64,000 nt of DNA from Asticcacaulis sp. ZE23SCel15 (GTDB lineage Bacteria; Pseudomonadota; Alphaproteobacteria; Caulobacterales; Caulobacteraceae), in NCBI RefSeq assembly GCF_030505395.1, contig NZ_CP130044.1, forward strand, positions 3,209,001-3,273,000, given 5' to 3'. How positions within the stretch are numbered: position 1 is the first letter of the stretch; the number at the start of each line of letters is the position of its first letter. The notes beneath the pieces were generated by a model. The model saw nothing but the letters and a program-made list of their open reading frames with translations, did no database searches and was not told where the DNA came from. Positions 36,824-38,776 of the stretch are shown in pieces. The position numbers were made by a program, and so were the translations under genes.

Positions 36824-36887
36824 GCTTCGTCCTTAACTTTTATTGACCTCACCGGACGGGTGTGAGATAGGGTGCGCCTCAGATTCA

Positions 36888-36906
36888 GCGCCAACCTGAT
36901 TGGCGC
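36888..36906. repeat. Hairpin after the aminotransferase gene
   Basis: GCGCCAA (36888-36894) and TTGGCGC (36900-36906) pair perfectly around CCTGA, 65 bases after the aminotransferase stop. No T-run follows. It may end that transcript or belong to the leuA leader. Confidence 0.45.
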
Positions 36907-36927
36907 GGATGTCGTTACGGGTGTGAT

Positions 36928-37026
36928 ATGTTGACGGATCAAACGTCTAAACTCAGTGAGCCTGAAACCTGCGCCACCGCGCGGGCAATGCTCATTATCC
37001 GACTTATGCTCTGGCGTCGGGACTGA
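36928..37026 (+). CDS. Probable leuA leader peptide
   Basis: A 32-residue frame starts with ATG at 36928; an in-frame ATG at 36988 would give 12 residues, MLIIRLMLWRRD. Both end at TGA 37024-37026. The last dozen codons are dense in Leu and Ile (CTC ATT ATC, CTT, CTC) and run straight into the paired arms at 37005-37056, as expected of a branched-chain amino-acid leader. Neither start has a strong ribosome site. I judge it a leader by position, codon content and overlap with the stems. Confidence 0.6.
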   Translation: MLTDQTSKLSEPETCATARAMLIIRLMLWRRD

Positions 37027-37056
37027 CGGCGACCCGACGGCTTGAGCATATCGCCG
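37005..37056 (+). promoter_or_regulatory. Candidate leuA attenuator
   Basis: TATGCTC (37005-37011) pairs with GAGCATA (37044-37050), and inside it CGTCGGG (37015-37021) pairs with CCCGACG (37033-37039). A competing stem is CGGCGA (37027-37032) with TCGCCG (37051-37056). Ribosome stalling at the leader Leu codons would mask TATGCTC. No long T-run follows, so termination may be factor-dependent or control may act on translation. Confidence 0.55.
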
Positions 37057-37102
37057 TAGTCACATGTTTTGATCTATCCGTATTTTGTGGTGTACCACCC
37101 CT

Positions 37103-38776
37103 ATGATGTTAAAAAATCCTGCCGATAAATACCGCCCTTTTGACCTGGGCGTCGATATGTCCGACCGGACATGGCCGTCGAAATCCATCACTGTCGCCCC
37201 GCGCTGGCTGTCGACCGATCTGCGCGACGGCAATCAGGCGCTGGCCGATCCAATGGACGTCGAAAAGAAGATGCGCTTCTGGAACAAGCTGATGGAAGTT
37301 GGCCTCAAAGAAGTCGAGGTCGGCTTTCCGTCGGCGTCACAGATCGAGTTCGATTTTGTGCGCAAACTGATCGAAGGCGGCCATATCCCTGATGATGTCG
37401 CCGTTCAGGTGCTGGTGCAGTCACGCGAAGACCTGATTGCGCGCACCTTTGAGTTGCTGAAAGGCGCTAAGCAAGCGATCGTTCACCTCTATAATGCCAC
37501 CTCGCCCTTGTTCCGCCGCGTCGTGTTCGGTCTGGAAAAGGCCGATGTCATCGCTCTGGCCGTCAAAGGGGCCACCGCCATTATGGCTGAGGCCGCCAAA
37601 CAGCCCGACACCAAGTGGATGTTTGAATATTCGCCGGAGACGTTTTCGGCAACGGAACTTGATTTCGCCGTTGAGGTCTGTGAGCGCGTCATGGACGTGT
37701 TTGGGGCTACACCGGAAAATCCGGTGATCCTGAACCTGCCTGCCACGGTTGAGGTTTCCATGCCCAACCTCTATGCCGATCAGATCGAGTATTTCTGCCG
37801 TAAGCTGTCGCGCCGGGATGCGGCCATCATCTCGATCCACCCGCATAATGACCGCGGCACCGGCATTGCGGCGGCTGAGTTGTCGCTGCTAGCCGGGGCT
37901 GACCGGATCGAAGGCTGTCTGTTTGGCAATGGTGAGCGTACCGGCAATGTCGATCTGGTGACACTGGCGCTTAATCTTTACACGCAGGGCATCACGCCCA
38001 ATCTTGATTTCTCTGATATCCGCAGCGTCGTGCGCACAGTCGAGTACTGTAATGCCCTGCCCGTCCACCCGCGTCACCCCTATGCCGGTGAATTGGTATT
38101 CACGGCTTTTTCTGGATCGCACCAAGACGCGATCCGCAAGGGCTTTGCCGCCCACGAACAGCGCAATGACGGCATTTGGGAAATGCCCTATCTGCCAATT
38201 GATCCGGCCGATCTGGGCGAAAGCTATGAGGCGGTCATCCGCGTCAATTCTCAGTCGGGTAAGGGCGGCATCGCCTGGATACTGGAGCAGGATAAGGGCT
38301 TGAAACTGCCGCGTCGGTTTCAGGTAGATTTCTCCCGCAAGATTCAGGAAATCGCCGATGCGACGGGCAAGGAAATGCACGCCGAAGACATCTGGCATGC
38401 GTTTGAAGGTGCCTATCACCTGAACGGCGAACAGAAATATGAACTGCTCGAATATGCGGATTCCGGTATTTTACGTACCGGCGGAGAGCGCCTGTTTGCC
38501 GGCCGTATCCGCCATGACGGCGTCGAAGTGCCGGTCAATGGGCGCGGCAACGGTTTGATATCCTCGGCGGTCAATGCGCTCAACGACAGCTACGGCTTAG
38601 GGTTGGAGGTCGTCGATTTTCACGAGCATGCGCTTTACAAAGGCACGGACGCCAAGGCCGTAGCCTATGTCGAATGCAAAACCCCCGATGACCGGAAGGT
38701 GTTCGGCGTGGGTATAGATTCTGATACGGCCACGGCGTCGGTAAAAGCAATCCTCAGCGCCGCAAACGCATTGTAA
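37103..38776 (+). CDS. leuA: 2-isopropylmalate synthase
   Basis: This enzyme condenses acetyl-CoA with 2-oxoisovalerate in the first committed step of leucine synthesis. [11 protein letters not shown] lies at residues 37-47, the metal-binding HPHNDRGTG near 247, and the C-terminal LeuA allosteric domain ends the protein, which should confer leucine feedback. From ATG 37103 it has 557 residues, the length of the longer LeuA type. A GTGGT/ACCAC palindrome lies immediately before the start and no standard ribosome site is seen. Regulation by attenuation is proposed from the leader. Confidence 0.93.

Follow-up and report, generated by a model that had tools for sequence, protein, structure and literature searches.

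The enteric leuL leader is the classical ribosome-mediated attenuator of the leu operon. A different arrangement, the LEU element, was described in 2005 by Seliverstov et al. upstream of leuA in most Actinobacteria, where an open reading frame with a run of Leu codons is combined with a pseudoknot, an alternative hairpin and a base stem that pairs the Leu codons with the leuA ribosome-binding site (PMC1262725). The same paper recalls leader-codon mutations in Streptomyces leuA that were at odds with classical attenuation, and proposes as binder of the element the DEAD-box helicase ML1624, for which it gives no homologues outside Actinobacteria at its cut-off (PMC1262725). A leader peptide with four consecutive Leu codons was also reported before leuA of Corynebacterium glutamicum by RNA sequencing (PMC4046766). 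Indirect support for leaders of this kind in Proteobacteria comes from P. putida lacking the tRNA-modifying enzyme TruA, where LeuA was reported to be up 4.2-fold (PMC7822408), as would be expected of a leader read by tRNA-Leu.

In the open-access literature, we found no paper naming an alphaproteobacterial leuA leader of such a kind. Here, we analyzed a leuA locus of Asticcacaulis sp. ZE23SCel15 within a window of 64,000 nucleotides (the whole stretch of DNA analyzed), for which an earlier note, made from the sequence, had proposed a leucine leader peptide and attenuator. We establish the anatomy of this leader and its linkage to leuA, together with the conservation of its peptide end, of a stop codon lying in a hairpin loop and of two RNA helices.

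Sequence sets and searches

A TIGR00970-type leuA was present at E<=1e-200 in 88 of the 387 alphaproteobacterial genomes of our class-wide draw, and up to 450 bases upstream of the gene were read at 87 loci, the window being excluded. An upstream region was counted as carrying an L-R-L codon triple when at least one was found within 10 codons of the stop in an open reading frame of 8-60 codons. The proximal leader was studied in 117 upstream regions; in 52 of these, the last leader spans 8 or 9 codons, counted from CGA up to the stop, and the 42 distinct proximal leaders of 8 codons were tabulated. The alignment used for pair counts holds 26 of these 42, picked by eye as alignable; L037, L041 and G719 were left out as near-duplicates, and 13 others (G670, G420, G441, G540, G737, G528, G609, G395, G561, G526, G607, G543 and G468) mostly for longer or shifted loops. 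A covariance model, R1, was built from the 26 aligned leaders and run on the 387 genomes.

The leuA locus and its leader peptide

The features of the locus, in window coordinates, are the following:

36843-36871, + strand: probable promoter TTGACC-17-GATAGG, inferred from a box common to leaderless members of the genus
36886-36909, + strand: 5' hairpin GCGCCAA/TTGGCGC, from the folds of five genomes; relatives have AATTCC/GGAATT there
36928-37026, + strand: leader peptide ORF of 32 codons, conserved in its C-terminal portion ..RLMxxxRD-stop
36933-36943 with 37068-37078, + strand: possible long-range closing helix GACGGATCAAA/TTTGATCTATC, with seven perfect pairs GATCAAA/TTTGATC
37000-37005, + strand: rare codons CGA-CTT (Arg-Leu), a conserved pair at which leucine is presumably sensed
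37005-37050, + strand: outer stem TATGCTC (37005-37011)/GAGCATA (37044-37050), lineage-specific, intact in two of five genomes
37015-37039, + strand: hairpin A, CGTCGGG (37015-37021)/CCCGACG (37033-37039), with the stop codon 37024-37026 in its loop
37026-37057, + strand: helix B, ACGGCGA (37026-37032)/TCGCCGT (37051-37057), a pseudoknot or alternative pairing
37087-37098, + strand: small hairpin GTGG-TGTA-CCAC abutting the leuA start codon, invariant in five genomes
37103-38776, + strand: leuA, TIGR00970-type 2-isopropylmalate synthase (NCBIfam TIGR00970), ATG start at 37103

The leuA product scores 796.6 bits against TIGR00970 of NCBIfam (cut-off 697.4) and 165.1 bits against TIGR00973, far below the cut-off of 598.7. 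Its start at ATG 37103 is read as MMLKNP in near relatives and, across most of the genus, as either MMLKNP or MLxNP; against this conserved ATG, the TTG at 37085, which opens the longer leuA frame of the ORF list, is an unlikely start. Positions 37083-37110 (TTTTGTGGTGTACCACCCCTATGATGTT), up to and into leuA, are invariant in five genomes, yet without a visible Shine-Dalgarno box. In leaderless members of the genus, TTGACC and a downstream GTGCG lie 30-45 nt 5' of leuA, and the transcription start in the window would fall near 36877-36881; a sigma-70 scan gave no promoter at its threshold. The frame 36872-36934 (VRLRFSANLIGADVVTGVIC) was considered as a second leader and dropped, being unconserved in relatives and starting before the presumed transcription start.

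The short frame ending at 37026 that the earlier note had pointed out is present as ORF 36928-37026, encodes MLTDQTSKLSEPETCATARAMLIIRLMLWRRD and has 32 codons in all five genomes that carry it (G000, G014, G018, G005 and G008). Substitutions in its N-terminal part are mostly amino-acid-changing within the genus, so the peptide sequence itself is under no visible selection there, and the end L-I-x-R-L-M-x-x-x-R-D-stop is retained in the five genomes. The window peptide ends in ..LIIRLMLWRRD and those of relatives in LIKRLMGRCRD, with no Leu run in either. Leucine makes up 5 of its 32 residues, and the only Leu codons retained in all five genomes are CTT 37003, next to CGA, and CTC 36991, further upstream. 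Control by the Leu/Ile codons, as the earlier note had it, is not what these comparisons favor: the peptide is not leucine-rich, and the conserved control codons are the pair CGA-CTT at 37000-37005. Both codons are rare, CTT accounting for 12.5% of Leu codons and CGA for 3.9% of Arg codons in the long ORFs of the window.

Conservation across Alphaproteobacteria and linkage to leuA

The last third of the leader (36997-37063) recurs directly 5' of TIGR00970-type leuA across Alphaproteobacteria. A family search gave weak matches (E about 4e-4) to window positions 37000-37041 just before leuA in seven genomes of another genus, and the same block lies 5' of leuA in Phenylobacterium (L133), Faunimonas, Shinella and others. 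The motif CGACTTA is present in 60/87 leuA upstream regions, against 1/87 on the reverse strand, and an L-R-L codon triple stands near a stop in 58/87 (57/87 when counted slightly differently), against 4/87 on the reverse strand and 1-5/87 in 20 base shuffles; by the criterion used, 20 of the 87 loci lack any CGACTN leader. Shared across the class is a frame that closes with ..L-R-L-x(2-6)-stop and uses the rare codons CGA-CTT, which encode the Arg-Leu of the L-R-L triples in 66 of 75 cases. CTT follows CGA in 38 of the 42 distinct proximal leaders, CGA itself being a requirement of the search for these leaders and not a result. Their stop codon falls at one position, as TGA (33), TAA (5) or TAG (4). 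The occurrence of all three stop codons at one place, taken with the choice of CGA-CTT, points to translation of the frame. Typical proximal leaders end in LRLIGGRRA, LRLIGCRRD or LARLTGGRRI, and that of the window in IIRLMLWRRD.

Run on the 387 genomes, R1 gave 28 matches at E<=1e-4, about 20 of them independent, as eight R1 rows derive from the same genomes and match by construction; in 27 of the 28 cases a listed leuA follows closely, and in the remaining one (G493) the match precedes an apparent additional LeuA frame of the same type. Of 46 matches at E<=0.01, 36 have a listed leuA beginning no more than 500 bases downstream. The only match in the strain's own genome is the window segment 36997-37063, and a search of that genome with the leader DNA likewise returned nothing above chance except the leader itself. 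A TIGR00970-type leuA was found at E<=1e-100 in only 5/57 sampled Caulobacteraceae outside the genus. Since R1 matches sit before leuA and few Caulobacteraceae carry this leuA, the distribution of the leader appears, on these comparisons, to be tied to this type of leuA and not to lineage. A contig labeled Bacillus subtilis (L085) has this leader in front of a leuA of alphaproteobacterial appearance (64% identical), and is probably a mislabeled or contaminated assembly.

Within Asticcacaulis, a full-length TIGR00970-type leuA is present in 24 of 25 genomes and the whole leader is recognizable by DNA similarity in five (those named above), beyond which the part outside 36997-37063 was not found. 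Eight other loci (L006-L013) lack such a leader and have the promoter-like TTGACC box, which is followed by leuA either at short distance or beyond an inserted repeat. Different leaders lie 5' of leuA in L019 and L021-L024; there, the peptide reads MITSKALxxLLIGTLxA-stop (MIAHLRHIALICCLIA-stop in L019) and is accompanied by a hairpin such as CCCCGTTTCGGG, then T-rich sequence, after which L019, L021 and L022 have a second frame with LLLL. Judged from these loci, leader types turn over inside one genus.

Tandem leaders and leaders in other groups

At 26 of the 87 class loci (e.g. G402, G420, G468, G528 and G743), CGA-CT[T/G] leaders occur as a pair separated by more than 60 bases; those of G402 end in ALLRLPNPLS and VRLRLIGGRRA. 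At such loci, the distal leader ends ..LLRLxxPxx-stop and the proximal one ..LRLxGGRRA-stop, and both stop codons are located within a hairpin loop or beside it. The window has the proximal leader only, with no tandem copy.

Many pseudomonad leuA upstream regions, among L078-L147 and as read from the DNA, encode ..LRLVSPRLRG-stop or similar, and at six sphingomonad loci (L119, L127, L129, L131, L138 and L147) the peptide ends ..LRL[SI]RP-stop. In most of these six sphingomonad loci, CCCTTAG at the stop faces a complementary downstream CTAAGGG or CTGAGGG. On a Rhizobium leguminosarum plasmid, a segment 3' of leuA (L249, positions 2405-2584) matches the Brucella sRNA CI27 at 42.9 bits, below the Rfam gathering threshold of 59.8.

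RNA helices of the leader

All stems named in the earlier note exist exactly where it had placed them, and its nested stem proved to be of two kinds: the inner CGTCGGG/CCCGACG is conserved, and the outer TATGCTC/GAGCATA, broken in G018, G005 and G008, is complete in just the window and G014. ATGCTCA at 36988-36994 can also pair with TGAGCAT at 37043-37049, which gives the 3' arm of the outer stem a choice of two partners upstream; in four of five genomes, the GCTCA/TGAGC core of this additional pairing is retained. The competition proposed between CGTCGGG/CCCGACG and CGGCGA/TCGCCG also allows, from the sequence, a pseudoknot reading with A and B coexisting.

In the 26 aligned leaders, the consensus of hairpin A comprises 12 pairs (7 in the window), with 89.7% of cells paired and two-sided change at 6 pairs, and helix B comprises 7 pairs, with 78.6% of cells paired and two-sided change at 4/7. 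For the two helices together, two-sided change affects 10 of 19 pairs (6.0 in shuffles) and 33 cells (13.2 in shuffles); these pair counts, like the codon counts above, come from related sequences, and the numbers are not probabilities. With slid partners as a control, at most 58.8% of cells are paired, versus 85.6% for A and B. Taken singly and compared with shuffled flanks, helix B reaches p<0.05 in 10 of 42 sequences (median p 0.218), so it rests on the alignment and not on each sequence. The earlier note had looked to relatives for conservation of leader codons and stems, and they retain the leader end and both helices, with two-sided pair changes in each.

Fold energies of the window leader (z of -1.29 for 36985-37060, -0.22 for 36985-37110 and -1.97 for 36878-37120) are barely better than those of shuffled sequence, so structure alone is unconvincing and conservation is what exceeds chance. 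RNAalifold on five close relatives showed little covariation (two pairs), the signal appearing only with distant relatives. The 5' strand of the closing helix is invariant in five genomes and its 3' strand has one change (TATC to TGTC in G008); this helix could be of chance origin. As the earlier note had remarked on the missing U-run, so a terminator scan and the sequence itself revealed no intrinsic terminator (GC hairpin plus U-run) in the window leader, and a U-run right after hairpin A or helix B is absent from the window and most relatives. Rfam covariance models gave no relevant match in the window region, 20 class loci or 8 named loci.

Comparison with described leucine leaders

Like enteric leuL, the window leader places a short peptide with rare Leu codons before leuA; unlike it, it has neither a U-run terminator nor a run of Leu codons, and its leuA is of a different type. 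The C. glutamicum leader, likened here by its peptide alone, is likewise a putative leucine attenuator before leuA, and differs in being actinobacterial and in having a Leu run. With the LEU element as described, the window leader has in common its place 5' of leuA, a short ORF whose end overlaps the structure, a pseudoknot (putative in the window), an alternative pairing and the lack of a terminator (PMC1262725). It differs in ending RLMLWRRD without a Leu run and in having no base stem to a leuA Shine-Dalgarno box (p=0.905 in the window); a base stem to the leuA ribosome-binding site reaches p<0.05 in 10 of 94 leaders, for instance GGAGCGACT/AGTCGCTCC in G504.

Four actinobacterial and two rhizobial leuA loci (plasmid records) have leader peptides with Leu runs, ending in ALLLGRRDGV, ALLLGCRGGV, LLLLSCRDESSD, LLLSCRGGGL, SLLLLGLIRGCRVR and SLLLLGLTRGCRVL. 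In all six, a long hairpin carries the stop codon in its loop, which pairs with downstream sequence (p 0.007-0.307); the four actinobacterial loci resemble the window in that the loop of hairpin A contains the stop codon and pairs with the 3' flank. R1 recovers the rhizobial Leu-run leaders L243 (E 5.4e-4) and L249 (1.5e-3) as well as an Ochrobactrum leader (6.3e-13), and gave no match at the four actinobacterial leuA loci; the six leaders from plasmid records aligned too unevenly for a covariance model. The plan is shared between the window leader and the actinobacterial LEU element, which may but need not reflect common descent. Because the window has neither Leu run nor base stem, it is best read as a variant that would work like the LEU element, not as a strict member.

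Proposed mechanism and alternatives

We consider it probable that 36928-37057 is a leucine leader of leuA, sensed by the ribosome, in which a pause at the rare CTT would shift the RNA pairing with no intrinsic terminator involved; its type is best read as a proteobacterial variant of the LEU type. The earlier note's leader peptide with alternative RNA pairing before leuA is borne out by a peptide end, a hairpin with the stop in its loop and a competing helix that are conserved beyond the genus. Its ribosome-mediated logic stands as far as peptide and pairing go, the closer model being the actinobacterial LEU element and not the enteric attenuator.

A ribosome covers roughly the next 12 bases downstream of the codon it reads. 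A ribosome translating the peptide ..R-L-M-L-W-R-R-D-stop would run into hairpin A: at CTT 37003-37005 it would reach the foot of A or, in the window, the lineage-specific outer stem that starts at CTT, and at the stop codon it would cover the loop and both 5' arms. With plentiful leucine, it would pass CGA-CTT, reach the stop in the loop of A and leave, upon which hairpin A and helix B would fold into what we infer to be the off state. When charged tRNA-Leu is scarce, a pause at the rare CTT would hold the lower part of A open and shift the pairing, and more leuA would be made. Leucine, which the leader is presumed to sense, would in this way determine which fold exists as the leuA start region is synthesized. 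There being no intrinsic terminator, the leader would most likely act through leuA translation initiation or through access of Rho; with neither U-run nor C-rich spacer in the window, translation initiation is slightly favored. A Rho signature found no support, C exceeding G in the spacer of 26/42 loci versus 23/42 upstream, and the window spacer being T-rich with G above C.

Other readings of the locus were weighed against this ribosome-sensed leader. The conserved helices A and B would also suit an RNA element whose pseudoknot binds a regulator, as proposed for LEU with helicase ML1624, the frame mattering little; Seliverstov et al. indeed favored a protein over classical attenuation (PMC1262725). 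We regard this as unlikely, since the choice of CGA-CTT and the fixed place of a stop that may be TGA, TAA or TAG point to translation, and since homologues of ML1624, at the cut-off of that paper, are given for Actinobacteria only (PMC1262725), yet the architecture is also alphaproteobacterial. A transcription attenuator of the enteric leu type, its terminator having escaped detection, is improbable: the leader peptide and alternative stems agree with it, TTTT occurs in the stretch separating the leader stop from leuA at 9 of 42 loci (4.3 expected) and members of another clade of the genus have a leader peptide followed by CCCCGTTTCGGGTTTT, but the window leader offers no terminator-like site, nor does a U-run directly follow A or B there or in most relatives.

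That the whole 220-nt structure, with its closing helix, binds a metabolite like a riboswitch is very unlikely; the closing helix and 5' hairpin are retained in five genomes, but everything outside 36997-37063 is confined to those five, for which the 220-nt riboswitch was dropped, and there is neither an Rfam match nor a large unpaired conserved core besides the codons. The near-shuffled fold energies are what one would expect of a chance ORF across an inverted repeat with no role, a reading to which the class-wide conservation and the R1 matches leave practically no credit.

Beyond this locus, we tentatively suggest that leucine control of TIGR00970-type leuA in Alphaproteobacteria may rest on a gene-bound leader class built on the actinobacterial LEU plan, with CGA-CTT replacing the Leu run, two leaders in series as a doubled sensor in about one third of the loci examined, and a window copy that is single and derived.

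The LEU element had been described as actinobacterial and tied to a phylum-restricted helicase (PMC1262725). Finding an equivalent plan ahead of this leuA type in Alphaproteobacteria casts doubt on the attribution to the helicase and favors leader translation. The actinobacterial and alphaproteobacterial leader classes could be compared side by side in easy hosts such as Caulobacter and Sinorhizobium, and the tandem copies with their fixed CGA-CTT dicodon yield clear predictions on rare-codon stalling without an intrinsic terminator.
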